Positions 30,567 through 48,067 of a DNA stretch of 64,000 nt are shown piece by piece; position 1 is the first letter of the stretch, and the number at the start of each line of letters is the position of its first letter. Position numbers and translations under genes: made by a program. The DNA comes from Gammaproteobacteria bacterium (lineage in GTDB: Bacteria; Pseudomonadota; Gammaproteobacteria; Pseudomonadales; JAUIET01). The notes beneath the pieces are model-generated. The model did not search any database, was not told the origin of the DNA, and saw nothing but the letters and a program-made list of their open reading frames with translations. The stretch lies in the NCBI GenBank assembly GCA_030429735.1, contig JAUIET010000004.1, positions 124,001 through 188,000 on the forward strand, in the 5' to 3' direction.

Positions 30567-32417
30567 ATGTCAGTTGAGCAAAATCGAGTGCACTATCTGA
30601 AATCGCAAAGTGTTGGTCTGAGTATGATTGTTGGGACTTTGATGGTCATCGCCATCATTGCCTACCAATCTCTGTACTATCAAAAGAACAACGAATCACT
30701 GCATTTACAGCAGCAGGGGCAAGCGCTTGCACAACTTATTTCCGAGGTACCCGCGGATGAATTGGACGAGCAAACGACACGCAATGCACTGAAAATACTG
30801 CAAGAAAGCCTGTCAAAAAACGATCTCGCCTACGCAATGGTGGTCAGCGCGCAAGGATTACCTTTGTCACAGATCACGGCTGCAGGTGTAAATCCTCCGC
30901 TGCCTCAGATCTCAGCTGCACCCAGTTCATGGACTGGTGAAACGCGACTGGCACTCGAGGATGGTCGCACTGTGATGGAGTTTTATGCGCCGTTCCTGAT
31001 TGATGGCGAGTACAAAGGCTCAGTTCACATTGGGCTTTTTGAACCTGAAATAAGCGCAGGGTTTGAGCAGCTGTCGTTTCTGGCGAGCATGGCCTTACCG
31101 GTATTCTTGCTGGCGCCACTGTTCTACTTCCTGATGCGCAGGCAGTTGCAACCTTTGCAGAATACGCAGCGCGAAATTGCGCAACATCTGCAATCGGGCG
31201 CTCTGCAGAATGTAAAACTAAGTGCCAGTGGCGAGCTTGGCGAGTTCATGGAAAACTTTAACGCATTCTTTCGTGAGGCAAGCGACAAGATTCAAGCGCT
31301 TGAGCATGATAATCACAGCATGCTTGCGTCCAGCAAGGTGCTGAATTACAAGTTCAACCGAATTGAGTCGGTGATCGAAGCGATACCTGGCGCCGTATTG
31401 GTGTTTGATGCAAGTGGCAGTTTGATGTTCGCCAATTCCAAGGTAGAAACATTACTGGGGGTTGACGCCGGCGTAGCTTTGGAACAACCCATAGCCAGCT
31501 GGTGCCCGAACGATGAAATATTTCGGTTTCTCGCGCGCTGCAGTGACCCGGCGAACCGTGCCATTCCCGAGCTAAGAGTTGAGGTGGAAACAAGCAATAC
31601 GCGCAAGCAACTGAATTTCAATGCCTACCCATTGTTCGTGTCAGCGAATGATGCGCGAAGTAAAGGCAATTTAGTATTGATCAGGGATGCCAGCCGGGAG
31701 GTCGCCGCTGAGTCCAGTCGTGAAGAGTTTGTGGCGCACATTTCCCACGAGCTCAAAACACCGCTGAACACCTTGATGATGTACAGCGAAGCACTACTTG
31801 GTGAAGACGGCAGAGACGCGGAGTTTCGCACTCAGGGCCTGAACGTAATATTCGACGAATCGGAACGGATGGCTGGCTTGATCAGCAACTTGCTTAGCAT
31901 TACTAAAATTGAAATGGGAAGCCTAAATATCGATAGGCAACGGGTAAAATTTAACGAATTCATAGAAGACACTTTCCGCACCATTGAGAAAGGCAGTGGT
32001 GACAGCGGTTTGAGCTTTCAATTGCAGCTACCAGACGATGCCATACCGGTTGCCATTGACAAGGATCTGATGCGTATTGCGGTCAATAACCTGCTCACCA
32101 ATGCGGTGAAATACAACCGCCCAGGTGGAACCGTGAGTTTGGATGTGGAAGACCTGGATGACGCAGTTCGCATCACAGTGAGAGACACAGGTATTGGTAT
32201 CTCCAGTGAGGACCTGGAGCATGTGTTTGATAAGTTTTATCGCAGTGAATCAGATGAAGTAAGAGAACGGACAGGTCATGGTCTGGGTTTGTCCCTGGCC
32301 CACGATATTGTACAACTGCACAATGGAAGACTCAATGTAAGCAGTGTTCTAAATGAAGGTACCGCCTTCACTATAGAGTTGTTTAAAGAAAGTGAATTAC
32401 TCAGGAATGTGGGTTGA
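30567..32417 (+). CDS. Membrane sensor histidine kinase
   Basis: A 616-residue kinase. Membrane helices at about 17-36 and 168-190 flank a periplasmic sensor of about 130 residues. A HAMP-like stretch (about 190-250) and a PAS domain (about 264-375) follow. The HisKA box is AHISHELKTP with phospho-accepting His394; the ATPase domain has the N box (NNLLTNAVKY, 507-516), DTGIG (540-544) and GHGLGLSL (570-577). The stop overlaps the ATG of a lone receiver gene, its likely partner. Position upstream of the filament genes suggests that it controls them. Confidence 0.9.
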   Translation: MSVEQNRVHYLKSQSVGLSMIVGTLMVIAIIAYQSLYYQKNNESLHLQQQGQALAQLISEVPADELDEQTTRNALKILQESLSKNDLAYAMVVSAQGLPLSQITAAGVNPPLPQISAAPSSWTGETRLALEDGRTVMEFYAPFLIDGEYKGSVHIGLFEPEISAGFEQLSFLASMALPVFLLAPLFYFLMRRQLQPLQNTQREIAQHLQSGALQNVKLSASGELGEFMENFNAFFREASDKIQALEHDNHSMLASSKVLNYKFNRIESVIEAIPGAVLVFDASGSLMFANSKVETLLGVDAGVALEQPIASWCPNDEIFRFLARCSDPANRAIPELRVEVETSNTRKQLNFNAYPLFVSANDARSKGNLVLIRDASREVAAESSREEFVAHISHELKTPLNTLMMYSEALLGEDGRDAEFRTQGLNVIFDESERMAGLISNLLSITKIEMGSLNIDRQRVKFNEFIEDTFRTIEKGSGDSGLSFQLQLPDDAIPVAIDKDLMRIAVNNLLTNAVKYNRPGGTVSLDVEDLDDAVRITVRDTGIGISSEDLEHVFDKFYRSESDEVRERTGHGLGLSLAHDIVQLHNGRLNVSSVLNEGTAFTIELFKESELLRNVG

Positions 32418-32791
32418 TGGCGAAACAAATTTTATTGGTTGATGATGAGCCTCATATTATCCGCGTAATGCAGATGGGCTTGCAACGGGCGGGTTATGAC
32501 GTTGTCACCGCACGCAACGGCCTGGAAGGTCTCGAGAAATTCAGAGCGCTGCAACCGGATGCGATGGTCGCTGACGTGGACATGCCGAAAATGACAGGTG
32601 TCGAACTGTGTACCACCTTACATCAGGAATGTCCTGATACGGCATGTAAGATATTTGTATCGACATCCAGAGCGGAAGCCGAGCTTAGGGTATGGGCACA
32701 AAAGACCGGCGGCATCCAGTTTCTTGAAAAGCCAATCAGTATCCGTACCTTAACTGCGGCGCTGAATGACCATTTTTCAGAGCTTCCCTAG
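32417..32791 (+). CDS. Stand-alone response regulator receiver domain
   Basis: A 124-residue CheY-like receiver with no output domain. The acidic pocket is Asp9-Asp10, the phosphorylation site is Asp53 (VADVDMP), and the switch residues are in FVSTS and the conserved Lys in FLEKP. ATG 32417 overlaps the kinase stop. It probably relays the kinase signal to another protein, perhaps the EAL protein encoded 19 bases downstream or the STAS domain of the ATPase. Confidence 0.88.
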   Translation: MAKQILLVDDEPHIIRVMQMGLQRAGYDVVTARNGLEGLEKFRALQPDAMVADVDMPKMTGVELCTTLHQECPDTACKIFVSTSRAEAELRVWAQKTGGIQFLEKPISIRTLTAALNDHFSELP

Positions 32792-32810: not shown

Positions 32811-34994
32811 ATGACTATGCATCGCGACCCGCTGCTTGCGTGTTTAAATACGGCACATTTTTTCTGTCTTGCTCGAGCCCTGTTTCCCGGAATTCATGCA
32901 ATGCGAATGTTAGGCGCGCAGCAGGATTTTCTGGAAGAGAGTGATGGTGAATCGGCAAAATCTGAGCAGTCACGGATCGCAGAAATCAATGAGCTTGTTG
33001 ATGAAGCCGGCTCACAGCGTATTGAACAGGGGTATGTAAAACGTATTGCTGATCAGCAATACCTGTATGCACGTAATTTAAGAACGTATACAGACGCGCT
33101 GATCGGCACCCTGGTTGTTGAATTTTCTGGCATTCCCGAATATGACCCTGCCAGCCTAACGGCGCTTGAAGAATTATTCGTCAGTGATTACCAGCTAAAC
33201 ATGGAGCTGGATTCCGCTACCATGGAGTTAACCGACCGCTACGAAGAGCTCAATCTGATTTATGGAACAGATGATTCTGCCGAGCAGTTTGACAAGGGCC
33301 ATTCAGTGATGGCAAACCTGGTCTTGCAATGTTCTGAGAGGATGAATGTTGCAACTACTATTCTTTGCTTGCCTGACCAGGACATTCTGATAATTGAGAA
33401 GGCTGATGACCAGGTTTCAGCAGTAGATATACGGCAATTGGCAATTGACGTGTTTATGCCATGGCTGGTTTCAGTGGGCGAGACCCTGGTGATTAATGAC
33501 ATGAAGGACGCAGCGCTTAATCAGCAGTGTCCAGGACTGGATCAAAAGCTGATTCTCTGCCCGATTTATGGCTACGCCAGCCAGGCTTGTGGCTACATAG
33601 GTGTATTGAATGACGCTGACTGCGATGACTTCAGCAATAGTGATCGAAACCTATTGCAAATACTAAGTCGCAAAGCCTCCAGGGTTGTGAAGAGTAATTA
33701 TGATGAACTCACCGGCCTGGCGAATAAGGAAAGCTTCGAGTTTCTACTCGATGATCTGATCAAGCAAGGTGTCTCAAATTCTGCCTCCAGTCTGCTGTTG
33801 ATTGATCTGCGCGGAGTACATGTTGTCAATGATTCCGCCGGCAATGAAGCCGGTGATGCCTTGATTCGGGAAACCGGTCGCTTGCTTGATAAAGGGCTCA
33901 GTCCTGATAGTTTCCTGGCCAGACTGGAAGGGGATGTTTTCGCTATTGCCTTTCGGGGTTCGGATATTGATCACAGCTATGAGATCGCCAGGAACATTCT
34001 GTCAGCCATAAATCACATGCAGTTTGAGTGGCAGGGCACACGCTTTCACACCAATGTGAGCATGGGGCTTATCCCTATCAGTCTGGAGCAAGATGCGCAG
34101 CAGGTGATCAGCACGGCAAAGATTGCGCTGCAGATGGCTTGTGACAAAGGCAATAATCTGATTGAAGTGCAGAGTTCAGGTAACGATGAGATTGCATTGC
34201 GTAAGGAGCGGATGCGCAGTCTGAACGTTATTCATGAAGCGTTGGAAGCGGACCATTTCGAATTGTATTGCCAAGGCATTTTCGCATCACAGTCAGTCTC
34301 ATCACCACATCACTACGAGGTGCTGTTGCGTCTGCGGGATGCGGATGGAAACGTCGTATCACCCGGCGTTTTTATTCCGGCAGCAGAACACTACAAGGTG
34401 ATGCCTGATATAGATCGTTGGGTTGTCAGCCATTGTTTGCGCACCTTGACAAACGACTGGGACGTACTTAAACATACCTCACAAAGCTGGGCGATTAACT
34501 TATCCGGGCAAACGTTCTCACAGCCCGATTTAATCGACTTCATTAGCGAAGAGTTAGAGCGTTGCATAGTACCTGCTGATCGAATAGCGTTTGAGATTAC
34601 TGAAACAGTTGCGGTAGATGATTTAACCGCGGCGCGAAATACCATTGAGGCAGTGCAAAGCCTGGGTTGTGAGTTTTACCTGGATGATTTCGGAACAGGC
34701 TTGAGTTCGTTCACTTACTTGCAGGAGCTGCCTTTCAATCATGTCAAAATTGACGGTCGGTTTATTAAGAATGTCGTTAATGACAAAGTAGCGCACGCTA
34801 TGGTCAAAGCAATAACCGACGTTGCCCACGTACTGGGCATGTCTACGGTTGCCGAGTACGTCGAAGACGAGTCAATTATATCGGCGTTGCGAGATTTGGG
34901 CGTTGAATACATGCAGGGTTATTGTTTGCATAAGCCTGAGCCAATGATGAATATCATTGAATCTGTTCGCACAAACACTCGCCTCAGCGCTTGA
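32811..34994 (+). CDS. GAF-like / degenerate GGDEF / EAL protein, probable c-di-GMP phosphodiesterase
   Basis: A 727-residue c-di-GMP protein. A GAF-like sensory region spans about 160-295. The GGDEF domain (about 300-460) reads LEGDVF where active enzymes have GGDEF, with no RXXD inhibitory site, so cyclase activity is unlikely. The EAL domain (about 470-720) reads EVLLR for the EAL motif but keeps the other catalytic residues: Asn in AINLSG, Glu in FEITET, the DD pair in YLDDFGTG, Lys in VKIDG, Glu in VAEYVE and Gln in YMQGY. I expect c-di-GMP hydrolysis. It precedes the MshEN-containing ATPase by eight bases. Confidence 0.85.
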   Translation: MTMHRDPLLACLNTAHFFCLARALFPGIHAMRMLGAQQDFLEESDGESAKSEQSRIAEINELVDEAGSQRIEQGYVKRIADQQYLYARNLRTYTDALIGTLVVEFSGIPEYDPASLTALEELFVSDYQLNMELDSATMELTDRYEELNLIYGTDDSAEQFDKGHSVMANLVLQCSERMNVATTILCLPDQDILIIEKADDQVSAVDIRQLAIDVFMPWLVSVGETLVINDMKDAALNQQCPGLDQKLILCPIYGYASQACGYIGVLNDADCDDFSNSDRNLLQILSRKASRVVKSNYDELTGLANKESFEFLLDDLIKQGVSNSASSLLLIDLRGVHVVNDSAGNEAGDALIRETGRLLDKGLSPDSFLARLEGDVFAIAFRGSDIDHSYEIARNILSAINHMQFEWQGTRFHTNVSMGLIPISLEQDAQQVISTAKIALQMACDKGNNLIEVQSSGNDEIALRKERMRSLNVIHEALEADHFELYCQGIFASQSVSSPHHYEVLLRLRDADGNVVSPGVFIPAAEHYKVMPDIDRWVVSHCLRTLTNDWDVLKHTSQSWAINLSGQTFSQPDLIDFISEELERCIVPADRIAFEITETVAVDDLTAARNTIEAVQSLGCEFYLDDFGTGLSSFTYLQELPFNHVKIDGRFIKNVVNDKVAHAMVKAITDVAHVLGMSTVAEYVEDESIISALRDLGVEYMQGYCLHKPEPMMNIIESVRTNTRLSA

Positions 34995-35002
34995 GTTGAG
35001 AC

Positions 35003-37054
35003 ATGAACGCACACGTAGAAATAAATAAAGAGCTTATTCAGCGCACACAGATAGGCGTAATGACATATCTGGCGCCAAAGCAGTCCATGACGGAAGCTTA
35101 TGTGCGAGACGCGTTTGATGATTCAGTAGAAGCCTGCATTAGCAAAATGCAAGTTAACCTGGTACTCGATCTGGCTGCAATTCAGATAGTAAACAGTGCA
35201 GCGATGGAGTCGATGATTAATGCACAAGACCGGCTGCTGCGCCTTGGCGGTTGGTTAAAAGTGGCGAATGCCAGTCGTCTGCTGAAAGAGATATTCAGAA
35301 TTACTCGTTTTGGCGACTCAGTCGCGATCATTGACAATGATGGCGTCGTAGGCGAAGTCTCCGAACAACAGCAATCCGAGATGAAGCTGGGTGATATTTT
35401 GCTGGGCAAAGGCTTGCTTAGCGAGATGCAACTTGAGCAAGCGATCAAACTTCAGCAGGAAACTGGAAAGAAGCTGGGGCAAGTGCTGATCGAATCTGAT
35501 TTTGCGCCCGAAAATGAGGTGTACGAGGCTTTGGCACGCCAACTTCAAATGCCTTATGTCCGTTTAAAGATGGGCTTGTTCGACAGTGACGTCGTTAAGC
35601 AGCTGGATAAATCGGTTCTGGCGCGCCTTGGCATACTGCCCTTGTTCTGTATTCGAAAAAAGCTGATGGTCGCGACCTCCAGTCCGCAGGACATGCCATC
35701 GCTCAACGAAATTGAAGAGCGCTTGGGCGTACAGGCGGTTCCCATTCTGGCCAGCCCAAGTGATATCACCAAGCACATAAACGACGCGTATGAGAGCAGT
35801 GGCTTCGCTGACGATATCATCGTTGATCTGGAAGATGGTTTTGAAGTTGTTGATAACTCCTTACGAAACGACTATGACGCAATTGATGAGCTTGCCGCAG
35901 GAAGCCCGGTTATCAACCTGGTCAATTCGGTTATTCAGCGCGCGGTGCGCGATGGCGCGAGTGATGTGCACATTGAGCCGGGTCGACAAAAGTCCAGAGT
36001 GCGTTATCGAATAGACGGCGTGCTGTACGAAGCCATAGCGCCCAGTGCAGATATGCACCCGGCAATCGTCTCCCGGCTCAAGGTAATGGCCAATCTCGAC
36101 ATAGCGGAACGCAGAATGCCTCAGGACGGTCGTATTCAGGTACAGACGCAAGGTCGGCAGGTTGATCTTCGATTCAGTTCATTGCCGGGTATGTACGGCG
36201 AGAAAGTAGTGCTGCGTGTGCTTGACAAGAATCAGGCAATTCTTGATATCAATAAACTTGGCATGAAAGACAGCAATGTCGATAAATTTCGTGAATTGAT
36301 GACGCGCAGCTACGGTTTGGTATTGGTCACCGGACCGACCGGCAGTGGCAAGACAACCAGTTTGTACGCTGCCTTGAATCACCTGAATTCAATAGAGAAA
36401 AACATTGTCACGATTGAAGATCCGGTGGAATACCAGTTGGATATTATCAATCAGAATGAGGTGAAAGCGGGTATCGGACTGAGCTTCGCAAAAATGTTGA
36501 AACACATTTTGCGCCAAGACCCGGACATAGTGATGGTTGGTGAAATTCGCGACCGTGAGACTGCAGAAATTGCCGTACAGGCCGCGCTTACCGGTCATTT
36601 GGTGCTGTCTACCTTACATACCAACGACAGTATTGGCGCCGTAACCCGCATCATTGATATGGGCGTTGAACCTTACCTGCTGTCATCAGCATTGCTCGGA
36701 GTGGTTGCCCAGCGCCTTTTGCGCACAATATGCCCCGCCTGTAAAACCAAGTTTGTGGCTCCGAATGATGTGTGTGAACAATACGGTTTTGATAACAGCA
36801 ACCCGGTACAGCTCGCAAAAGGGCGCGGTTGTACCGAGTGCTACGACTCGGGTTATCGCGGACGAGCGGGTATACATGAAATTCTTGAGGTCACGCCTGC
36901 GCTGCAGCAACTGATAATGACCAACCCAAGCCGTGATCAGCTCAACGAGTACTTGAAGGAATATGAGGTTGAAACCTTGATGCACAGCGGGCTTGAGCGC
37001 GTACTCAGGCAAGAAACAACGCTCGAAGAAGTGTCGCGTGTAGTGAACACCTAA
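35003..37054 (+). CDS. STAS-MshEN-GspE fusion: type IV filament assembly ATPase
   Basis: A 683-residue fusion. Residues 1-115 form a STAS (anti-anti-sigma-like) domain: NLVLDLAAIQIVNSAAME with Ser65 at the usual phospho-site, then WLKVANASRLLKEIFRITRFG (quoted in part). Residues 128-180 form an MshEN module, two 24-residue motifs at 128-151 and 157-180, each opening KLG and ending in Gln, separated by exactly five residues; this is the published c-di-GMP-binding architecture. The ATPase has Walker A GPTGSGKTT (444-452), Walker B near 506-517 and a zinc site at Cys577, 580, 610, 613. It probably powers filament extension. The STAS fusion is unusual. Confidence 0.92.
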   Translation: MNAHVEINKELIQRTQIGVMTYLAPKQSMTEAYVRDAFDDSVEACISKMQVNLVLDLAAIQIVNSAAMESMINAQDRLLRLGGWLKVANASRLLKEIFRITRFGDSVAIIDNDGVVGEVSEQQQSEMKLGDILLGKGLLSEMQLEQAIKLQQETGKKLGQVLIESDFAPENEVYEALARQLQMPYVRLKMGLFDSDVVKQLDKSVLARLGILPLFCIRKKLMVATSSPQDMPSLNEIEERLGVQAVPILASPSDITKHINDAYESSGFADDIIVDLEDGFEVVDNSLRNDYDAIDELAAGSPVINLVNSVIQRAVRDGASDVHIEPGRQKSRVRYRIDGVLYEAIAPSADMHPAIVSRLKVMANLDIAERRMPQDGRIQVQTQGRQVDLRFSSLPGMYGEKVVLRVLDKNQAILDINKLGMKDSNVDKFRELMTRSYGLVLVTGPTGSGKTTSLYAALNHLNSIEKNIVTIEDPVEYQLDIINQNEVKAGIGLSFAKMLKHILRQDPDIVMVGEIRDRETAEIAVQAALTGHLVLSTLHTNDSIGAVTRIIDMGVEPYLLSSALLGVVAQRLLRTICPACKTKFVAPNDVCEQYGFDNSNPVQLAKGRGCTECYDSGYRGRAGIHEILEVTPALQQLIMTNPSRDQLNEYLKEYEVETLMHSGLERVLRQETTLEEVSRVVNT

Positions 37055-37058
37055 CGCA

Positions 37059-38246
37059 ATGGCAATCAATATCAAGCAACTGGAAGAACAGGGCGGCACG
37101 TCGCAAGTTGCTGCCAAGACGTCGCTACGTGCGGGAGCAGCGAACGACGGGGAGCCGTCAGTTCGCAAGTTAAGCGATGTCCATATCAACCTGGACTTCC
37201 TTGCGCCAAGCAAAGTTACCGCAAATGACCGAATGTTCTTTACCGAGCAGCTCGCCTTGATGCTGGATACCGGCAACAGTTTGCTGGAGTCCTTGCGCAG
37301 CTTGAGCCGCTATGGTGGCAGCGTTGCGCTGAAAAAACTGATAAACAGTATTGCCGATGATGTAGAGCAAGGGCAGTCATTTTCCTTCGCGTTGGCCAAG
37401 CACCCTGAGGTATTCAACAGCACGTATTGCAATCTTGTTAAGGCCAGCGAACAAGGCGGGTTCATGAGTGACGTGCTGGAAGAACTGATGGAAATGGATG
37501 AAAAGCGGTCAAAACTGCAAGCCACGATGCAGTCAGCTTTATCGTACCCAGTGTTTCTTGCCGGTTTCTCAGTACTTGTCGTTATTTTTGTGCTGGTCGT
37601 GGTGTTCCCCAAATTTGCGGATATGTTTGGCGCAATGTCACAGCATTTGCCTGCTACCACCGTTATCTTAATGGGCTTCAGCGAAAGTTTGATTGCCCAC
37701 TGGCCTTACTATATCGCCGGCACGGTAGCGCTCGTCGGCGGTGTGTTTGCAGCGCTTCGATCGTCAGCAGGACGCTATTTTCTAGACGGAGCCAAGCTGC
37801 GAGTGCCAGTTGTCAGGGATATTTTTTCTGAACTCTATCTGGTGCAATCAATGCGCGTCATGTCGATGTCTATGTCGCGCGGTGTTAGTGCTATCGAGAC
37901 GCTGGCGGCGTGCCGCGATGTCATTGCGAATAAGCGCTACAGAGACTTTTTCAGATCGATTGAAAACGATCTGCAGGAAGGCAAGGGGCTGGCGGCAGGT
38001 TTTCGCCGCGAGGGATTTATCCCTGACCTCGTCAAACAAATGATCACTACGGGTGAGGAAAGTGGCAATCTGCCAAAAGTCATGGCTCGTGTGGCCAGCT
38101 ATTATGAGCGCCAGTTGGAGAAACGGCTGCAAATGGTGTCCAAAGCCGCGGAACCCCTGATGCTAATTGTTATGGGCGCCGTGGTTGGCGTACTGGTCAG
38201 TTCTCTGATTCTTCCTATCTTCAAGATGTCAACGGTTGCTCATTAA
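37059..38246 (+). CDS. GspF/PilC-type inner-membrane platform protein
   Basis: A 395-residue polytopic platform protein that couples the ATPase to the growing filament. It has two T2SSF repeats (about 70-195 and 270-390), with FFTEQLALMLDTGNSLLESL near the start and membrane segments at about 165-190, 215-235 and 365-385. Start ATG 37059, four bases after the ATPase gene. The N-terminal 60 residues are hydrophilic and probably bind the ATPase. There is no PilB/PilT-style duplication of the ATPase in this cluster. Confidence 0.9.
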   Translation: MAINIKQLEEQGGTSQVAAKTSLRAGAANDGEPSVRKLSDVHINLDFLAPSKVTANDRMFFTEQLALMLDTGNSLLESLRSLSRYGGSVALKKLINSIADDVEQGQSFSFALAKHPEVFNSTYCNLVKASEQGGFMSDVLEELMEMDEKRSKLQATMQSALSYPVFLAGFSVLVVIFVLVVVFPKFADMFGAMSQHLPATTVILMGFSESLIAHWPYYIAGTVALVGGVFAALRSSAGRYFLDGAKLRVPVVRDIFSELYLVQSMRVMSMSMSRGVSAIETLAACRDVIANKRYRDFFRSIENDLQEGKGLAAGFRREGFIPDLVKQMITTGEESGNLPKVMARVASYYERQLEKRLQMVSKAAEPLMLIVMGAVVGVLVSSLILPIFKMSTVAH

Positions 38247-38401: not shown

Positions 38402-38941
38402 ATGTCAAACACCAACCGATCACACCATTCAGGATTTACGCTTGTTGAATTACTGATTGTTGTCATCATTCTTGCAATTTTGGCAGCGATTGTCGTGCCG
38501 CAGTTTTCGGCCAGCACAGACGATGCAAAAGCGGCGGCACTGGAATCGAACACCAATGCATTCCGGCAGGCATTCAATGTCTACTACCAGCAACATGGGG
38601 AGTATCCCGGCGCTAACCTGGCCAACAGTCCAGCCGCGTGTGAAGGAACAGCAGTTACCGGCGCTGCTGCCGAAAGTGCTGCTGCTGTGGTAGCGCAACT
38701 CACCCTATATACCAATGCCGATGGCGAAGCTTGCCAGAGGCGCGAGGACAGCGGCGGAAACGTGGTTTTCCCCTATGGACCTTACTTGCGTGAGATTCCG
38801 GAAAACCCCAGCAATGGTCAGGATACGATCGGTACTCCGTTAACCACGGGTGATCTGGTTCTCAGCGCGGATGCAAGCTCAACCGTCGGATGGAAAGTTG
38901 ATGTTAAATCCGGTGTGGTTGTTGCCAACACTGCTCCGTAA
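38402..38941 (+). CDS. Major pilin/pseudopilin, GspG-like
   Basis: A 179-residue type IV pilin-like protein. The prepilin signal is SHHSG/FTLVELLIV, with Glu at +5 and a hydrophobic helix to about residue 40. The C-terminal globular part contains two cysteines (in PAACEG and GEACQR). It is longer than typical GspG (about 140). Being first among five pilin-like genes after GspF, it is likely the main fibre subunit. The gene has its own 155-base upstream gap. Confidence 0.9.
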   Translation: MSNTNRSHHSGFTLVELLIVVIILAILAAIVVPQFSASTDDAKAAALESNTNAFRQAFNVYYQQHGEYPGANLANSPAACEGTAVTGAAAESAAAVVAQLTLYTNADGEACQRREDSGGNVVFPYGPYLREIPENPSNGQDTIGTPLTTGDLVLSADASSTVGWKVDVKSGVVVANTAP

Positions 38942-39012
38942 CTGTAACCAGCTTACGCTGTTCTACTACTGCGCGGATGGAATAGGGTAGCTGTCGACCA
39001 AAGCAAACGCCA

Positions 39013-39576
39013 ATGCCAACATATCCGTCCAGTCGCGCAGGATACACACTTATTGAGTTACTGGTGGTAGTGGGTATTTTGGCTATCATTTCCACCATCA
39101 TTCTGACCAATACCAACAGCAAGAATCACGAGGCGCGTCTGGATGCGGCTGGCACAGAGTTAATTAATGCGGTACGGCAAGCCCAGGCACGCTCTGAAAG
39201 TGACAAGGTGTACACGGCGCTCAGAATTCAGGAAACCACATCAATTGAGGTGTTAGAAGTGGATGATACGGCGACGCCACCTGAGCCAAGCACCACTCAG
39301 ATTATTCATCCTCTAAGCAAGAGACCCTACCGTATATTATTATCTGAGAGACCTGCCACAGCGGGAATTGCTATGGATATTAGTAACGGACCTTTCGTGC
39401 ACAGTGACAGCAGTACAACCGAGTTTCTGTTTTTTGATCCTCAAGGTCGTCCTTACGTCGTTGGTAATTCAGGCACTGGCTTGCTTGCCGCGACAAATAT
39501 CAGTGTTTCTATCGGTGGCGTATCACGCACACTGGATATTGACAACCTGTCCGGTCGGGCGCGCATGGTGCCCTGA
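39013..39576 (+). CDS. Minor pseudopilin, GspH-like
   Basis: A 187-residue pilin-like protein with signal SRAG/YTLIELLVVVGILAI and Glu at +5, followed by a beta-rich C-terminal part. The order G-H-I-J-K in the cluster suggests a GspH equivalent. The globular domain shows no other recognisable motif. Its TGA overlaps the next gene by one base. Confidence 0.83.
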   Translation: MPTYPSSRAGYTLIELLVVVGILAIISTIILTNTNSKNHEARLDAAGTELINAVRQAQARSESDKVYTALRIQETTSIEVLEVDDTATPPEPSTTQIIHPLSKRPYRILLSERPATAGIAMDISNGPFVHSDSSTTEFLFFDPQGRPYVVGNSGTGLLAATNISVSIGGVSRTLDIDNLSGRARMVP

Positions 39577-40019
39577 TGAAAGAGGCAAGTACACAAGCGC
39601 ATAAATCCCAACGCGGCATCAGCTACGTTGAGGTTCTGATCGCCAGCGCGATTATCGCGGTCAGCCTGGTACCGGCGATGGAAGCCCTGAATGCATCGGT
39701 AAGATCCAACCAATTAAGCGCAACGCTGCAAGCCCAGCATTTTCTGTTACTTGAGAAATATGAGGAATTAATGGCTCAGAGCTTTGATACGCTTGATGCA
39801 GAAGCTCTTTCGTTAGCTGATCAAACAACGGCAAGTACGCTTTTTTCAGACCCTTCTGGTACCAGCAACCGACGGCTCGTGTATTTGCAGCGCTTTGATG
39901 CCGACAACTTAGACAATGACGATAACCCTTTCACAGGTGGTGATGGCGGTTTGTGCTGGCTGCGCGTTGAAATCGCGGGAACAAGCATCAATCGTGAAGT
40001 TCTGGTGAGCAAATATTGA
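39576..40019 (+). CDS. Minor pseudopilin, GspI/PilV-like
   Basis: A 147-residue pilin-like protein with signal SQRG/ISYVEVLIASAIIAVSL, which keeps Glu at +5, and a small globular domain. In type II secretion, GspI starts the tip complex with J and K. The ATG at 39576 overlaps the gspH-like stop; the end overlaps the J-like TTG start by four bases. Confidence 0.82.
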   Translation: MKEASTQAHKSQRGISYVEVLIASAIIAVSLVPAMEALNASVRSNQLSATLQAQHFLLLEKYEELMAQSFDTLDAEALSLADQTTASTLFSDPSGTSNRRLVYLQRFDADNLDNDDNPFTGGDGGLCWLRVEIAGTSINREVLVSKY

Positions 40020-40978
40020 ACGCGCGATACAGAGGCAATACTGGTTTCACCTTGCTGGAGCTGATGATCACAGTCGCCTTGTCCGGATTATTACTGGCAG
40101 GATTTACCCGCTTGATCAATGCAACAACGGATGGTGCGGCCTTGATCAATACCCGTAACCAGCTTCAAGCCGACGCGCAGTTTGCGATGAAACGCCTGGT
40201 GAGCGCGGTCCAGCAGGCCGACGTATTGATTCTACCTCAACGTGACAACCCTACGACCGGTTCGATCAATGAGAATATTCGCATGCAGAATGTTCCACCA
40301 GGTGCCGGTGAAACGGGTCAGGCCGTGCTTGCGGTCGGCCATTCTCGTTTTATGGACGCGGATTTTGATGACAGTGTTGACGTAGATAATGATGGTGATG
40401 GCCGAATCAATGAAGACCCGTCGGCGGATTGGAACAATGATGACGCACCGGGGATCTGGCAGGTGGATGACGATGCCGATGGTCAAGTAGATGAAGGCAA
40501 TGCAGCCGATGATGATGAAGATGGCAGTGACGACGAAGACCCTATTGATGGCATAGACAATGATGGTGATGGTCGTATCGATGAAGACCCGGGTGAAGAT
40601 CGTAATTCCGACGGTTGCGCCGGTAAATGCGGTGTTGACGACGATGGGGATTTATTCGTTGATGAGGTAACAGCAGCCAATGATGACGAAGACACAGCCA
40701 CCAATGAAGATTGGTTAGACACCAAAGTGTTTCAGATTTCAGGTGCAAGTTTAATTGAGCGCACGCCCGTGAATTTCGATTTGAACGGCGCTGACGGCAT
40801 AACCGGAAGGGATATCGCGGTCGAGACTATCGCCGAGAATGTATCGATGCTCAAGTTTACCCGGGAATCGCCAGCCGGGTCCAAGCAGGAGTACGTACGA
40901 ATTGAGCTTAGACTGGGCAACCCGGAAGGCGAGCATGTGCTGTTGGAGACTGCGGTGCGCGTGGGTACTGAGCGATGA
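40016..40978 (+). CDS. Minor pseudopilin, GspJ-like, with Asp-rich calcium-binding-type insert
   Basis: A 320-residue pilin-like protein with signal NTG/FTLLELMITVALSGLLL (Glu at +5). Residues 114-232 are an insert dominated by DXDXDG motifs: DNDGDGRINEDP (124-135), DDDADGQVDE (151-160), DNDGDGRIDEDP (181-192) and DDDGDLFVDE (208-217). These resemble thrombospondin type 3 or dockerin-like calcium loops. Cys201 and Cys205 may form a disulfide. GspJ proteins are usually about 200 residues. The start is TTG at 40016. Confidence 0.85.
   Translation: MNARYRGNTGFTLLELMITVALSGLLLAGFTRLINATTDGAALINTRNQLQADAQFAMKRLVSAVQQADVLILPQRDNPTTGSINENIRMQNVPPGAGETGQAVLAVGHSRFMDADFDDSVDVDNDGDGRINEDPSADWNNDDAPGIWQVDDDADGQVDEGNAADDDEDGSDDEDPIDGIDNDGDGRIDEDPGEDRNSDGCAGKCGVDDDGDLFVDEVTAANDDEDTATNEDWLDTKVFQISGASLIERTPVNFDLNGADGITGRDIAVETIAENVSMLKFTRESPAGSKQEYVRIELRLGNPEGEHVLLETAVRVGTER
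40385..40591 (+). repeat. Direct repeat inside the GspJ-like insert
   Basis: Two copies, 40385-40420 and 40556-40591, of a 36-base sequence encode DNDGDGRI(N/D)EDP. They differ at only a few bases, indicating a recent internal duplication. Related shorter units lie between them. Confidence 0.75.
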
Positions 40979-43755
40979 CCATGTGGACTGCGGCCAGATA
41001 TAAGCGCGAGTCGGGTTTTGCGTTGTTGCCCGTTGTGCTCGGGATTGCCTTGCTGGGTGCTATAACGTATATGATAAGCCGTGAATCGGCAGGCAATATC
41101 AATATTGTCCGCCAGGCGCAGGATCAGGCATCCGAGCGAGCCCTGCTGGATGCCGCTTTGGCGCATGGTAAGTGGTTGGCCATGAACAATGATTGTGAAA
41201 TACCGGGTAATTTGCCGGCACAATCGCTCAACGGGCAGCAGTACGATTTGAGTTTTGCTGGCACGACTCAGGCACTGGATATTGTCGGTACCGTTTCACG
41301 AGATGACGGCTCGGTGATTTCAGACAGCGCGAACGCTATTCCCATGTATGATTACGCGAACCCCAGGCAGCTCGAGTTGGTCGCCAGCGATGATGCATTC
41401 ATGCGCTTGCAACTCCTGAATAACAATGGCCAGCATGGTGGTGAAAACGAAATCAAAGTTAAGCGGAAATTCAATGACAACAAACGAGGTTTGCTGAAGT
41501 TCGATCTTACGCAGGTACCCCCCGGTTCTTTGGTCGACTCTGCGAGTCTGCAATTATACATGAACAGCGCTGATAGTAGCGAAAACGACATCGCCTTTCA
41601 TGTGCTGCAAACCGACTGGAATGACAGCGACGTTTCGGGAACCAATCCCTGGAGCTCTACTGGCGGCGACTTTAATTCAAGCAGTGAACTGATTATGCCC
41701 GGCACCAGTAACACGGGTAACTACAGCATTGAGATCAGTTCATTAGTAGAAAGATGGTTAAACAACGAGCTCGACAACTACGGTGTCTTGCTTAAGATGG
41801 TCAACGAAAACAGTGGGAACAATGAGTATAAGTTTCGTAGCCGTGAGTACTCAGATCCAACACAACGACCCAAACTCTTCGTCAATTATGTATGCCCCTG
41901 CGATGTGCCGTGTGAGGCAGGTATTGTGTTGGAAGACCTGTTGATTGGTACTGAAAACACGGTTGATATCGCCGGACAAACGCTTCGTCCTGAAGATCTG
42001 TTGCGCTACTCGCCGGGAGGTCCCAGTGCGGAGCCGTTCTTTGACGGGTCGGCTGCGGGTCTTGGCGAGGATATACGCGCTGTGCATCAATTGGAAAATA
42101 ATCGCCTGTTATTGGCAATCAAGAATCCGGTCACCTTGAATGGGGTGAATTTCCAGCCGCAAGACGTGTTGGAGTACGCGCCCGAGGATGGCTTGTTCAG
42201 GATGTATCTGGATGGCAGTGCTTTCGATATTGATGAAAACATAAGTTCGCTTGCCCTTCGCGCCGATGGCGTGCCTGTCATCTCGCTGGAGCAGCCAGAC
42301 CAAGTATTTGGCACGCAATACCAGAATACCGACCTGTTCGCTGTGGATATGCAGGCGCGAAGTAGTGAACTGGTGATGAATGGCAGCGCCCATGGCATTA
42401 ACAAGGAAATTGATGCATCTCATATAACAGCCGATGGTCAGCTTCTGCTGTCATTTAAACACCCTGTTACTTTAAGTGGTGTGGATTTCAAGAAAGGCGA
42501 TGTGGTTCAACTCAATCCGGCGAGCAGTCAGGCAATTGCCTATTTCGACGGTACGCAGTTTTCAGATACTACGCGGCTTACTGCACTGCACGCAGGCAAA
42601 GGCTTCGGTTCGATAAACCATGCCGACCTTCATTTCCCATTCGAATCGGACAGTGTTGGCACTACGCCGGATGTTATAGGGTCGCGGGATGGCATCTTGC
42701 TAGGCTCACCCGAGTGGGTGCCAGGCGGTATCAATGGGGCGTATCGATTTGACGGTATTGATGATGAAATACAAGTAGCAAATGACGCTGATTTGCAGCT
42801 TGATGGCGACTTTACCCTGTCGATGTGGATTTACCAGGAGGGCGATCGCGCTGGTGAGCAGTATCTTGTCACCAAGCAAAACCCACCTGAACCGGATAAA
42901 TTTCTGATGGGTTTGCGTGATGGCGCGTTGTTCTGGGCGCTCGAAAAAGACACCGAATCGGTAGAGTTTGGTCCATATACTGAATTAGACGCAGCCAGCT
43001 GGCATCATATTGTCATCACGCTAGACACGCTGGCCGATAAGGCTGTGTTTTATCTTAACGGTGAACAGCTTGCGTCCGTGGATACTGGCTATGACCCGGT
43101 CAGCAATGGGTTTGATCTGCACTTCGGTCAGGGCTTTGAGGGTGTGATGGACGAAATTCGATTGCACAACCGCGCCGTGTCAGCGATCGACGTAAAACGT
43201 TTGTTTGAGCAGAGCCCGCCTGCAGCGCCAGACCAAGCACCCATGGCAGCATCGATGGTGGCACCTGAAAGTGCTATAGGAGCATGTGACGGCTCTTACG
43301 CTGATTTTTTCAATGCAGGTTCCTACTCGAACAGTGATGGCACACTTTATTGGCCGGACCCATGGAACGAATACCGAGACGATGGCAGTCCGAGCAGCGG
43401 CAAGGTAGAAATTGCCAACAAACGTTTAAAATTAAGCGACGAAGACAGGGCGCTGTACAGAAAACTGCCCATTGGTAATGCCTCATCTGCGGATCTCGCC
43501 TTCAATGTGGTTGCAATGTCTTTCTCTGTGGGGGATAGCAATCATCTCGGTGTTTACATCTCCAGCAGCGGCGCCGGCGGCCCCTGGACCGAACTGGCTC
43601 AGTTGAAAAAAAGCGATATCTCACCGATAGCCAAGCAAATAAACTTAGACAGCTATATTGGAGGTGATACATGGATCAGCTTCGATACCAGCTCAGATTC
43701 CTCTGCTTTCGATTCGTATGAAATAGACAACGTGCAGATACGTTGCCAACCCTAA
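40975..43755 (+). CDS. Giant GspK/PilX-like tip protein with DNRLRE-, repeat- and LamG-like domains
   Basis: A 926-residue multi-domain pilin-like protein. The signal is ESG/FALLPVVLGIALLGAITYM, with Pro where most pilins have Glu at +5, as in tip-type GspK proteins. About 130-306 resembles a DNRLRE carbohydrate/adhesion domain (GLLKFDLTQVPPGSLVDSASLQLYM, cited in part). About 310-545 holds three to four repeats with DGSA and PVTLxGVxF...DV. About 552-746 is a LamG/ConA-like domain (NGAYRFDGIDDEIQV; FTLSMWIY). About 765-926 is a further beta-sandwich-like domain. I infer a filament-tip adhesin. Confidence 0.85.
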   Translation: MTMWTAARYKRESGFALLPVVLGIALLGAITYMISRESAGNINIVRQAQDQASERALLDAALAHGKWLAMNNDCEIPGNLPAQSLNGQQYDLSFAGTTQALDIVGTVSRDDGSVISDSANAIPMYDYANPRQLELVASDDAFMRLQLLNNNGQHGGENEIKVKRKFNDNKRGLLKFDLTQVPPGSLVDSASLQLYMNSADSSENDIAFHVLQTDWNDSDVSGTNPWSSTGGDFNSSSELIMPGTSNTGNYSIEISSLVERWLNNELDNYGVLLKMVNENSGNNEYKFRSREYSDPTQRPKLFVNYVCPCDVPCEAGIVLEDLLIGTENTVDIAGQTLRPEDLLRYSPGGPSAEPFFDGSAAGLGEDIRAVHQLENNRLLLAIKNPVTLNGVNFQPQDVLEYAPEDGLFRMYLDGSAFDIDENISSLALRADGVPVISLEQPDQVFGTQYQNTDLFAVDMQARSSELVMNGSAHGINKEIDASHITADGQLLLSFKHPVTLSGVDFKKGDVVQLNPASSQAIAYFDGTQFSDTTRLTALHAGKGFGSINHADLHFPFESDSVGTTPDVIGSRDGILLGSPEWVPGGINGAYRFDGIDDEIQVANDADLQLDGDFTLSMWIYQEGDRAGEQYLVTKQNPPEPDKFLMGLRDGALFWALEKDTESVEFGPYTELDAASWHHIVITLDTLADKAVFYLNGEQLASVDTGYDPVSNGFDLHFGQGFEGVMDEIRLHNRAVSAIDVKRLFEQSPPAAPDQAPMAASMVAPESAIGACDGSYADFFNAGSYSNSDGTLYWPDPWNEYRDDGSPSSGKVEIANKRLKLSDEDRALYRKLPIGNASSADLAFNVVAMSFSVGDSNHLGVYISSSGAGGPWTELAQLKKSDISPIAKQINLDSYIGGDTWISFDTSSDSSAFDSYEIDNVQIRCQP

Positions 43756-43978: not shown

Positions 43979-45130
43979 ATGAAAGCGATTGCCTGGAACA
44001 AGCTACTGCCCGGTACGGCGAGCGATGCGCGTGGCGTTGTGCGCAGCAATATCGGCCTTGAAGTATCCCTGCATAATCTAAACCTGGTACAGCTAGCCCA
44101 GAATCCGGCAGGCAAGATACGAGTGCACGGCTGGGCAAGCCTGCCATTGGTCTATGACCGAGAGGAACTGATTTACAATCCTAAAGCATTTAAAACCGTG
44201 AGTAAGCAGATCAAGCAACATGCAGCATTTTCGGGCAAAAAAATAAATGCAATGCTGCCGGCGTCCGAATTGAAAATAATGTCGGTGAATTACGAAACCA
44301 AGGAGGGGCAGGACGCTAGCCTGGCGATAGCGCGGATTATCGCGGATCGGGTAGACGGCCCATTGAGCGATTTTGTCATTGATTATCTGCCCGTCAGGCA
44401 AAGTGAAAAGTTTGGCAAAGGCCTGGCAGTAGTCGCCATAGCCAAACAACAAAAAGTCATTGCCTATCTCGACAGTCTTGCCGCGGCAGGCTTCGAAGTC
44501 GCTGCTTTGGACATTGGTCCGGCGGCGATAAAACGTTTGGTCACCGCACTCAGTGGTCCACGTGTAGGCGAGACTGTACTGGTCATAAATTTTGGTAGCA
44601 ATCTGTCGTATCTTTCTATAATTTCTGGTCGGCGCCTGTTGTTCGACGAAGAGATTCGGTTTGGTGAAGAGCAATTGGTGTCTGAAATTGCCAGCGCCCT
44701 GGATATGGACAGCAATCTCGCCAGAGAGCAAGTGCGTCGCTGTGGGCTTGGCAGTCACAATCAGCCCGATCTAAACCCAACGCTGAGTGATGTTGCTGAC
44801 ACGCTTCTGCAAATATTAAGACCCAGCTTTCGAACATTGGCCGATAGCCTTAAGCGTGCGTTGGTGTACTCGGTCGCCGAAACGCGGGGTGAGCCGATCA
44901 GCCAAATTTATCTCCTTGGCAGCGTCGCACGGTGGGCGGGTGCTGCAGACGTGCTCACTGCTTTGATGAACCTGCCAGTCAGCGTTCTGCCAGACCCCAT
45001 TGCTGCTTTTGGAGCGAGTTTCGAAGAAGGCGAGTTAAACATTCAACACAGCCACCCGGACATGGCATTAGCCACCGGACTGGCGCTCAGGGACCTGGAT
45101 ATCGATGGCCAATATCGACCTGGTACCTGA
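43979..45130 (+). CDS. PilM/MshI-like actin-fold assembly protein
   Basis: A 383-residue cytoplasmic actin-like ATPase of the PilM/GspL-N type, which links the alignment complex to the assembly ATPase. Motifs include VLVINFGSNLSYLSI (phosphate-binding type strand), an EEIRFGEEQL segment and a C-terminal PDMALATGLALRD typical of PilM. It overlaps pilN by 26 bases. The separate PilM, PilN and PilO polypeptides are the type IV pilus/MSHA arrangement, not the GspL/GspM fusion of type II secretion. Confidence 0.87.
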   Translation: MKAIAWNKLLPGTASDARGVVRSNIGLEVSLHNLNLVQLAQNPAGKIRVHGWASLPLVYDREELIYNPKAFKTVSKQIKQHAAFSGKKINAMLPASELKIMSVNYETKEGQDASLAIARIIADRVDGPLSDFVIDYLPVRQSEKFGKGLAVVAIAKQQKVIAYLDSLAAAGFEVAALDIGPAAIKRLVTALSGPRVGETVLVINFGSNLSYLSIISGRRLLFDEEIRFGEEQLVSEIASALDMDSNLAREQVRRCGLGSHNQPDLNPTLSDVADTLLQILRPSFRTLADSLKRALVYSVAETRGEPISQIYLLGSVARWAGAADVLTALMNLPVSVLPDPIAAFGASFEEGELNIQHSHPDMALATGLALRDLDIDGQYRPGT

Positions 45131-45782
45131 CGAGTACCGCTATTGGACCTGGCAGCAGCGTTGCTTAAAACGAAGTGGCCTAATTGCCGGCGCCTTAACG
45201 CTTTTATGCGCTTTGGTATGGCATTTCCTGCATGTTGATGCGGCCAGGGCCGATGAGAAACTTCGCATACTGCAAGCGCAGAAGCAAGTCAGCCAAAATC
45301 AGCAACAACGCCTTGAGTATCTCAGCGCACAACAAAGTTCACTGCAGCGCCAATGGCAGCTATTGCTTGGCTTGCGAGGTGGCGCAACGGTTGAAAACCT
45401 GTTCGTTGCTATTGATCGTGCGCTGCTCGGTGATCAGGTCTGGTTTGACAGCTGGCAATTTCAGAGAGCCGGACAGGAACTATCAGAGCAGCAGATTGCG
45501 CCCGAGCGCGATCGTGGCGCCTATATCATTATTCTGCCCGACCAAGCGCAAGCGTCTGCAAACACGCCATCGGCCTGGTCGATTGAAACTCATCTGAGCA
45601 TCAGTGGCGGTGCCGACGATCACGCTGCACTGTCTGCGTTTGTGGAGCGGCTACTGCGCCAACCCAGAGTCAGTGATGTCAAAGTGCTGAGCACCAGTTT
45701 GTATTCCAGTAGCAGCGACTCATCCGCAATTAAGTTCAATATCAGCGTGCTGGTCAACAACGCCTATGGGGTAGACACGTGA
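45105..45782 (+). CDS. PilN-like inner-membrane assembly protein
   Basis: A 225-residue bitopic protein: NIDLVPDEYRYW at the N-terminus (PilN-type INLLP motif that binds PilM), a membrane helix at about 24-43, a coiled coil at about 48-80 and a periplasmic ferredoxin-like domain. ATG 45105 lies within the end of the pilM-like gene. It overlaps pilO by four bases. Confidence 0.85.
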   Translation: MANIDLVPDEYRYWTWQQRCLKRSGLIAGALTLLCALVWHFLHVDAARADEKLRILQAQKQVSQNQQQRLEYLSAQQSSLQRQWQLLLGLRGGATVENLFVAIDRALLGDQVWFDSWQFQRAGQELSEQQIAPERDRGAYIIILPDQAQASANTPSAWSIETHLSISGGADDHAALSAFVERLLRQPRVSDVKVLSTSLYSSSSDSSAIKFNISVLVNNAYGVDT

Positions 45783-46339
45783 TTCGTGAACAATTGATCG
45801 TCATGCCAAAGAGCAGTTTCCTGATGATTCTGAGCTTGCTGATGCTTGTGGTGTTTGCCGCGCTCACTGTGTATGGCGTAGTGCCAAAGTACAAGGCCTG
45901 GGTTAAGTCCAATCATTCTTATGAGCTCTTAAGCAATGCCGCGGGGTCTACGGTTGATCTGAATGAACAAATCAACAAAATGGATTCCGAGCTCAAAGAG
46001 CTTCAACACAAGCTCAATGGCGACAGTGCCAGCCTGCCGTTCAAGCAGTTCGAGTCACATGTAATCGGGCAACTACAAGAGGTGGCATGGCAGCATAACG
46101 TGCAACTGGCTTCGATTACACCACGACGTGGTGATCGCGTAGACATGTTTCGCGAAATGTTGTTTGAAGTGGATATTAGTGGCGATTACTTCGATATTCA
46201 TCGCCTGTTAAAAGAATTCAGAAACAAGCTGGGATTTGTTGTGGTTAAGCAATTTGATCTCAAGCCAGGAAATGACTCAGCAAAGAAGTGGTTGGATGTT
46301 TCGCTAACGCTGGCGTCATATCGAGTGGAGAAGAATTGA
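45779..46339 (+). CDS. PilO/MshJ-like inner-membrane assembly protein
   Basis: A 186-residue bitopic protein with a membrane helix at about 13-33, a coiled coil at about 58-78 and a periplasmic domain (FKQFESHVIGQLQEVA; FDIHRLLKEF) typical of PilO. It would heterodimerise with the PilN-like protein. Start GTG at 45779 overlaps the previous stop; ATG 45803 is an alternative. Its stop overlaps the next ATG. Confidence 0.83.
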   Translation: MIREQLIVMPKSSFLMILSLLMLVVFAALTVYGVVPKYKAWVKSNHSYELLSNAAGSTVDLNEQINKMDSELKELQHKLNGDSASLPFKQFESHVIGQLQEVAWQHNVQLASITPRRGDRVDMFREMLFEVDISGDYFDIHRLLKEFRNKLGFVVVKQFDLKPGNDSAKKWLDVSLTLASYRVEKN

Positions 46340-46734
46340 TGAGTGTGTTTCAAATGTTCAATTCGGTTAGAACCTGTCTGCTGTGTGTTATTGGCATTAA
46401 CGTGTGTTTACTGGGCAGCAAGTCATACGCGCAAAACGATTATCAACTGCGTAACAACCCGTTTGCCAGAGCGTTCGAAGATCAGCCAAAAGTGGGCTAC
46501 AGCAACGCCGCGAATGCGGATGGCGACATGGACCTGCGCGCTATTTTGTTTGATGAACAAAGGCCAATGGTGAATGTCGGCGGTCATATTCTTGAACTTG
46601 GTGATAAGTACGCGGGTTATATCGTACGGGAAATTCGTCGCGACAGCGCTATTTTCTACCGTGATGGACGTGCAACCCTGTTGCAAATGGAGGACGGTGA
46701 CGATGATATCGCCGGGTACGCTGATGCGAATTGA
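46339..46734 (+). CDS. MshK/GspC-type periplasmic connector
   Basis: A 131-residue protein with an N-terminal hydrophobic signal (about 12-32) and a small beta domain (LRAILFDEQRPMVNVGGHILELGD, quoted in part; IVREIRRDSAIF) like the homology region of GspC, PilP and MshK. It would bridge the inner-membrane assembly complex and the secretin. An upstream in-frame ATG exists at 46288, but 46339 avoids overlap with the pilO-like gene. Confidence 0.8.
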   Translation: MSVFQMFNSVRTCLLCVIGINVCLLGSKSYAQNDYQLRNNPFARAFEDQPKVGYSNAANADGDMDLRAILFDEQRPMVNVGGHILELGDKYAGYIVREIRRDSAIFYRDGRATLLQMEDGDDDIAGYADAN

Positions 46735-48067
46735 AGTAAATGGAACGAATAGATTGCGAACCTCCGTTCGGATGCACGCACGTGTTTTCATCGCTTTGCT
46801 GTTACTGGCGCTGTGCACAAAAGTACTTGCCTCAGACACCGTGGACTTGACGCTACGTGACGTAGAGCTTTCTGCGGCGATGGAAATGCTATCCAAGCGC
46901 GAGAAAATAAATATCGTTCTGGCCGACGGTGTGCAAGGCAAGGTATCTCTGAATCTGTACGGAGTGGGGGTTGCTGATGCGATCCATATTATTGCCAATG
47001 CCGCGGGCTATTCTGCTGAGCGCCGTGGCAACAGCTTCCATGTTTTGAAACACGAAGACGTTAATAACTACACCAGCAGCAATAACCTTCGCATAAAAAC
47101 CTTCAAATTGCGCTATTCGAATGCCGCAGCCGTCAGTGAGGTTCTGGGTCAGTATCTCTCCTCATATGGAACGATTACGCTGTTGGAAGATCGCAATATG
47201 ATGGTAATAGAGGACACGCCTGATTTTATTCGGCGAATTGGTATTCTGGTCAAGGAACTGGACTACCGGCCAAAGCAGATACTAATAGAAGCGAAGATTC
47301 TCGAAGTTCGCCTGGATGATGCTGAAGTTATGGGTGTGGAATGGCAACGCTTGTTCAATTCTGCTGTTGGTGGCAGCAGTGGTAGCTTTGGCACGCAGGG
47401 TTTGTCGAATCCAACCAGTCCAGGCTTTTTTGTGGATCTTGGTGATAACAATTTCCAGGCTGTTTTGGATGCCTTGGAAACTCAGGGCAAGGCAAGAACC
47501 TTGTCCAGCCCGACCTTGCTCACGGTGGAAAATCAGCCCGCATCCGTAATCGTTGGTAATCGATTAGGGTATCTGAATACGGTGACCGTTAATCAGGTCA
47601 CTACCGAGACTACGGAGTTTCTGGAGAGCGGGGTTATTCTCGAGGTTACGCCCAGTGTGGATTCAGAGGGCAATATTCTGTTGAAAATTCACCCCGAGGT
47701 CAGCACGGGCACAGTAACAGACGGGGTGCCTTCACAGGACACCACAGCTGTGGATACCCAGTTGATTGTGCCAGACGGTGCCACCTCATTCATTGGCGGT
47801 CTAATGCGTATTCAAAGTTTTGAAGATCATCGTGGCGTGCCAGTGCTTGGCCGTATTCCTGTGGCAGGTCGCTTATTCTCCCGTCAGGAAGACCGACAGA
47901 TCAGAACCGAGATTATCGTGTTAATAAAGCCTAAGATTGTCGACCCTTCATCTTCTGCCTGGTTCGAAAAGCAGCAACGGGAAGTGGACGACAGCAGCGC
48001 TCATATTCTGGAACAAATATCAGAAAATCCAAGCGCTGCGCCACCGGTTGCTGTTGCGCAGGAATAA
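46724..48067 (+). CDS. MshL/PilQ-like secretin, short form
   Basis: Outer-membrane channel subunit of 447 residues. A signal peptide (RVFIALLLLALCTKVLAS) precedes an STN/N0 domain (VDLTLRDVELSAAMEML; about 45-110) and an N1-type domain (about 115-190), then the secretin core (LIEAKILEVRLDD; PVLGRIPVAGRLF; IIVLIKPKIV). It is shorter than GspD (about 650). Start 46724 overlaps the previous gene by 11 bases; ATG 46772 would give a cleaner signal peptide. The frame is open upstream to 46574, but that part overlaps the mshK-like gene. Confidence 0.9.
   Translation: MRIEVNGTNRLRTSVRMHARVFIALLLLALCTKVLASDTVDLTLRDVELSAAMEMLSKREKINIVLADGVQGKVSLNLYGVGVADAIHIIANAAGYSAERRGNSFHVLKHEDVNNYTSSNNLRIKTFKLRYSNAAAVSEVLGQYLSSYGTITLLEDRNMMVIEDTPDFIRRIGILVKELDYRPKQILIEAKILEVRLDDAEVMGVEWQRLFNSAVGGSSGSFGTQGLSNPTSPGFFVDLGDNNFQAVLDALETQGKARTLSSPTLLTVENQPASVIVGNRLGYLNTVTVNQVTTETTEFLESGVILEVTPSVDSEGNILLKIHPEVSTGTVTDGVPSQDTTAVDTQLIVPDGATSFIGGLMRIQSFEDHRGVPVLGRIPVAGRLFSRQEDRQIRTEIIVLIKPKIVDPSSSAWFEKQQREVDDSSAHILEQISENPSAAPPVAVAQE

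Follow-up and report, generated by a model that had tools for sequence, protein, structure and literature searches.

Pilus assembly ATPases read c-di-GMP. The window analysed here, a stretch of 64,000 nucleotides from a gammaproteobacterial contig, encodes such an ATPase with what looks like a STAS domain fused to its N-terminus, and this raises the question of whether the fusion is genuine and, if so, whether the motor would take a second input besides the second messenger. The initial annotation had read the gene in this way from its letters, proposing a STAS domain with a phosphorylatable serine, an MshEN layout and a complete GspE in one chain. The protein comprises the following features:

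35003..37054, + strand: STAS-MshEN-T2SSE assembly ATPase, 683 aa (ORF call, Pfam, NCBIfam, homologues)
35027..35338, + strand: STAS domain, residues 9-112 (Pfam, AlphaFold2 model, Foldseek, profile against PDB)
35195..35197, + strand: Ser65, at the start of STAS helix 2, in the alignment position of the SpoIIAA/RsbV phosphoserine
35339..35383, + strand: flexible linker between STAS and MshEN, residues 113-127 (pLDDT <50 at 113-123)
35384..35455, + strand: MshEN c-di-GMP motif I, residues 128-151
35471..35542, + strand: MshEN c-di-GMP motif II, residues 157-180, separated from motif I by a 5-residue spacer
35543..35800, + strand: MshEN C-terminal subdomain (PF05157), residues 181-266 (Pfam)
35900..37039, + strand: T2SSE ATPase (PF00437), residues 300-679 (Pfam)

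Comparison of the 683-aa protein with Pfam yielded matches to STAS at residues 36-110 (24.2 bits; PF01740 cut-off 22.6), to MshEN at 181-266 (43.7 bits) and to T2SSE at 300-679 (459 bits). The Walker A sequence GPTGSGKT (36332-36355) is invariant across the alignment, and two zinc CxxC pairs are present (C577/C580 and C610/C613). The T2SSE domain is whole, as first proposed, but the name GspE has to be qualified: the protein scores below the cut-offs of both the GspE equivalog TIGR02533 (587.8 bits vs 630) and the PilB equivalog TIGR02538 (576 bits vs 675.65), and forms an ATPase clade of its own. It shares with GspE and PilB the complete T2SSE domain, the Walker A and the zinc pairs, and their models are its best NCBIfam matches (588 and 576 bits); it differs from them by about 125 extra N-terminal residues that hold the STAS domain.

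Given that the Pfam STAS score of the window protein is barely over threshold, we tested this assignment further. The Pfam model matched 29 out of 29 aligned homologues at E<=0.01, with a best E of 1.7e-9. An AlphaFold2 model of residues 1-126, produced from a 29-row alignment (mean pLDDT 79, pTM 0.68), shows the order strand-strand-helix-strand-helix-strand-helix-strand, which is that of STAS domains. When this model was compared with the PDB using Foldseek, RsbV, SpoIIAA and TM1442 were recovered at probability 1.00 and the MlaB complex only at rank 42; its TM score with RsbV is 0.84 (by target length). At the sequence level, a single-sequence phmmer search of the PDB with the N-terminus gave no match, whereas the family profile matched SpoIIAA (4.6e-7) and TM1081 (6.7e-7). 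Under the NCBIfam ant_ant_sig model TIGR00377 the domain reached 25.8 bits vs a cut-off of 53.45. The full-length model places STAS at 9-112, a low-confidence linker at 113-123 and four helices over 129-181, followed by MshEN_C and the ATPase; its pTM is only 0.44, and the relative placement of the domains can hence not be taken from it. The Pfam and the AlphaFold/Foldseek checks agree on a STAS fold at about residues 9-112.

A frameshift or assembly chimera joining two genes would produce the same architecture artificially. Searching for other fused proteins yielded, besides a copy from the same genus that is 77% identical over residues 1-683 (genome G001), about 40 homologues, and the fusion is common to about 40 marine and sediment gammaproteobacterial sequences. 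A pattern scan of the GTDB species collection, which picks up close relatives only, found 30 loci, of which two break off ahead of the N-terminus, in MAGs of Gammaproteobacteria, including Woeseiaceae, Ectothiorhodospiraceae, Chromatiaceae, Sedimenticola, Thiotrichaceae and others. A profile of STAS plus MshEN covered both domains in 16 of the 369 sampled genomes of the class, from about 13 families, and one further genome, listed under the same phylum, also has both. With the full-length protein as query and a threshold of E<=1e-145, 15 places in 14 of the 369 genomes were matched; all 15 matches start at query residue 39 or before, and so no close relative lacking STAS was seen. We then compared the ATPase cores alone, in a tree built on residues 300-680 (STAS excluded) with 42 STAS-less ATPases for comparison. 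The 43 STAS-bearing rows lie on one side of a branch with a support of 100/100. STAS-bearing ATPases are one clade, and STAS is kept in every close relative found, within a comparison set drawn from our own searches that a STAS-less member could have escaped. The full-length homologues from independent assemblies and the single ATPase-core clade rule out a chimera with near certainty, and the stop codon of the preceding GGDEF-EAL gene, 8 bases before the ATG of the ATPase gene, further opposes it. The fusion of STAS, MshEN and a GspE/PilB-type ATPase in one chain is real, upheld by Pfam, NCBIfam, the model and the homologues.

The two 24-residue KLG...Q blocks first noticed at residues 128-151 and 157-180, with a 5-residue spacer, proved exact, and they fit the published MshEN layout of two 24-residue motifs plus a 5-residue spacer, 53 residues long (PMC5013675). 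The NCBIfam model c-di-GMP_motif (NF053729) spans residues 128-180 end to end with 58.9 bits (cut-off 38). The ligand contacts of MshE are R9, L10, G11, Q32, R38, L39, G40, L54, L58 and Q61 (PMC5013675), and their counterparts in the window protein are K128, L129, G130, Q151, K157, L158, G159, V173, L177 and Q180, all identical or conservative. Slightly off consensus are Lys for Arg at both first positions and Val for Leu54; the turn residue G47 of MshE is Asp166 here. In the 45 family proteins, a number that here and below includes a handful of duplicate loci (for example L035/L065, L055/L071 and L059/L068), Q151 and G159 are kept in 45/45, Q180 in 44/45 and G130 in 43/45; motif I opens with Arg in 37 proteins and with Lys in 8. 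The changes reported to abolish binding in XpsE of Xanthomonas (G11V, R38G, G40L, Q61V etc.) are absent from the window protein. Judging from its residues, the 53-residue motif is largely intact and the predicted site well preserved. One member of the family, L055/L071 (L055: 10001-12025), has lost most of motif I in frame and kept motif II and STAS; it is a candidate for a natural c-di-GMP-blind form, or else an assembly error.

The genes around the ATPase gene are these:

30567..32417, + strand: histidine kinase (PAS-HisKA-HATPase), conserved upstream neighbour
32414..32791, + strand: single-domain response regulator, conserved upstream neighbour
32811..34994, + strand: GGDEF-EAL protein, EAL catalytic residues present, GGDEF degenerate (EGDVF)
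37059..38246, + strand: GspF/PilC platform protein
38402..40978, + strand: four pilin-like genes (38402, 39013, 39576, 40016), the first GspG-like
40975..43755, + strand: 926-aa protein in the GspK position; its N-terminus is pilin-like, and it carries CBM96/DNRLRE and LamG domains
43979..48067, + strand: PilM, PilN, PilO, a small ORF and the secretin

Where enough sequence is available, most loci show the same order: histidine kinase, receiver, GGDEF-EAL, ATPase and GspF/PilC, followed by the GspG-like pilin, three minor pilins, the large LamG pilin-like protein, PilM, PilN, PilO and the secretin. The histidine kinase and the receiver retain their phospho-acceptor residues. The GGDEF-EAL gene lies directly upstream of the ATPase gene in nearly all relatives, even the most divergent fusions; in many loci no gap separates the two genes, or they share a few bases. 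All GGDEF-EAL proteins of the family keep the EAL catalytic residues, while their GGDEF motif is variable. The exceptions to this arrangement are the Thiotrichaceae locus L059/L068, without the upstream module, and L076, where the kinase and regulator genes stand directly upstream. In the former, the absence of the whole module (kinase, regulator and GGDEF-EAL) is accompanied by Asn in place of Ser65. In several relatives (L032, L035, L038, L050-L052, L054 and L058), a second gene of the GGDEF/EAL type separates PilM from the pilin genes. Because the ATPase gene sits in a conserved operon with a GGDEF-EAL gene, control of the ATPase by c-di-GMP is likely.

The cluster probably makes an adhesive pilus; secretion would be the alternative output. 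The 926-aa LamG protein, which is conserved in relatives, is likely the tip adhesin of the pilus. No PilT gene was found in the cluster; two are located elsewhere in the genome. The minor pilin encoded at 40016-40978 contains Asp-rich DxDxDG repeats that resemble the calcium-binding repeats of thrombospondin type 3 or dockerin. We use the label MSHA-like provisionally: it rests on the MshEN domain, the presence of PilMNO with a secretin and the adhesin-like LamG protein, and the cut-off of no sub-type model was passed. MshE of Vibrio cholerae (PMC5013675, PMC4624772) shares the 53-residue motif, followed by MshEN_C and T2SSE, and a pilus-type gene cluster. It starts at the MshEN domain, without STAS, and the window ATPase belongs to a separate clade whose operon, unlike that of MshE, has its own module of histidine kinase, response regulator and GGDEF/EAL protein.

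Our preferred explanation, to which we give a probability of roughly 0.6, is that the protein acts as the extension ATPase in an adhesive, MSHA-like type IV pilus system and takes two inputs: MshEN would receive c-di-GMP, and STAS a protein partner. As in Vibrio MshE, c-di-GMP would bind the MshEN motif and license pilus assembly, and the STAS domain, a protein-protein switch module akin to anti-anti-sigma factors, would couple the motor to a signalling partner. This partner would most likely be the GGDEF-EAL protein of the operon itself, or a PP2C/kinase pair acting on Ser65. Counting against this explanation are the lack of a kinase or phosphatase gene for Ser65 in the cluster, the genomes that have Ser65 and no canonical SpoIIE, the small share of genomes with a strong RsbW match, the Gly or Asn at position 65 in five family members, the slightly off-consensus motif of the window protein, the Thiotrichaceae locus lacking the upstream module and, for the HsbA precedent discussed below, twitching that is unchanged when hsbA is deleted. 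The binding of c-di-GMP and the sign of its effect, the STAS partner, the phosphorylation of Ser65 and the type of pilus are what we infer from the sequences and models.

The serine itself lies where the initial annotation had put it. In the profile alignment, Ser65 falls on the serine right after the Asp of the Asp-Ser-Ser-Gly site of SpoIIAA, which we take to be the phosphorylated Ser58. Position 65 is Ser in 40 of the 45 family proteins and Gly or Asn in the remaining five, and it ranks among the seven most conserved of the 100 STAS positions. The +2 position, Gly in SpoIIAA, is Ala in 32/45. Within the same genome, the equivalent residue is Ser in the two PP2C-adjacent STAS proteins and in the MlaB-like STAS; in two large STAS proteins whose size is like that of transporters it is Phe or Ile, in alignments that are weak (a third such protein did not align).

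If the serine were used as in classical partner switching, an RsbW-type kinase would phosphorylate it, a PP2C of the SpoIIE type would reverse this, and the ATPase would be the direct effector. The likeness of the domain to RsbV and SpoIIAA in predicted fold and in the position of the acceptor serine argues for this, as does the conservation of Ser65. The genome also carries two SpoIIE genes, each adjoining a STAS gene, and one of these PP2C-adjacent STAS proteins (C5) is the closest to the window domain of the three same-genome STAS domains compared (E 2.3e-7). On the other hand, RsbV and SpoIIAA are free single-domain proteins that act on anti-sigma kinases, whereas the STAS domain of the window protein forms part of a pilus motor, and the +2 glycine is replaced in most fusion members. 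Moreover, the window's pilus cluster was found to contain neither an RsbW-type kinase nor a PP2C gene, and in relatives neither was among the neighbours recognised. The upstream HATPase match was rejected as a kinase partner, as it belongs to the ordinary histidine kinase. The best RsbW-like protein, whose existence counts in favour of partner switching, was rejected as an in-cluster partner, since it is located in a flagellar cluster beside an Hpt-like gene. Three genomes with Ser65 have no canonical SpoIIE: G181 (98% complete, best match 6.9e-5), G200 (100%, 3.6e-7) and G244 (93%, no match). Only 7 of 18 genomes gave a strong match to RsbW (E below 1e-15), although some may rely on proteins that combine PP2C and HATPase in a single frame. 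We consider partner switching in its classical form rather unlikely. Two loci are worth recording here. At L061 (4469-5400), a flagellar cluster contains an RsbW-like HATPase gene with an Hpt-like gene behind it, possibly a split version of the HsbR-HptB arrangement of Pseudomonas. At L062 (5310-6507), a stand-alone STAS gene precedes a PP2C gene of the SpoIIE type, and no kinase gene was recognised in the vicinity.

The lack of canonical kinase/phosphatase pairs in several genomes fits with a domain that is not phosphorylated at all and serves for docking or allostery, as MlaB does for the MlaF ATPase or the STAS domain in SulP transporters, with Ser65 capping the N-terminus of a helix. In the model Ser65 opens helix 2, its replacements (Gly and Asn) are not phosphomimics, and the MlaB-like STAS of the same genome is second-closest by profile. 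This option is a tentative one, as partner-switch antagonists lead the PDB matches, the MlaB complex comes far down the list, and Ser65 is conserved above most of the STAS domain. Returning to the two-input ATPase, reversible phosphorylation of Ser65 might recruit or release the GGDEF-EAL protein of the operon, so that the c-di-GMP level at the motor would be controlled on the spot and sensed by the adjoining MshEN domain; this specific version we regard as unlikely. Of the two signals first attributed to the ATPase, the c-di-GMP part is well supported by the motif and by the c-di-GMP enzyme encoded upstream, and the phospho-partner-switching part is no more than a possibility. A phospho-input is only possible, because of the absence of switch genes from the cluster, the genomes without SpoIIE, the scarcity of RsbW and the members with Gly or Asn.

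A precedent for a STAS protein linked to c-di-GMP is found in Pseudomonas aeruginosa, where phosphorylated HsbA binds the diguanylate cyclase HsbD (PMC5085249). HsbD affects piliation, and twitching is unaffected by deletion of hsbA (PMC5085249). The likeness would lie in the physical coupling of a STAS protein to an enzyme of c-di-GMP metabolism, which in the case of HsbA and HsbD influences biofilm and motility; HsbA is nevertheless a free protein, HsbD is a cyclase, and a pilus ATPase is fused to neither. In the literature we searched (supplementary tables and domain databases being outside its scope), we found no published description of a STAS-MshEN-ATPase fusion, in agreement with what had been supposed at the outset. 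While c-di-GMP-reading pilus ATPases are known, the built-in STAS domain is a new element as far as this search extends. A conserved clade in which one chain combines STAS, MshEN and the motor, and whose gene directly follows that of a c-di-GMP enzyme, lends itself to asking how a second messenger and a protein switch are wired to one machine, and bears on whether partner switches can act on targets beyond sigma factors and cyclases. The clade also draws attention to a pilus system of marine and sediment gammaproteobacteria that is probably adhesive and has received little study.
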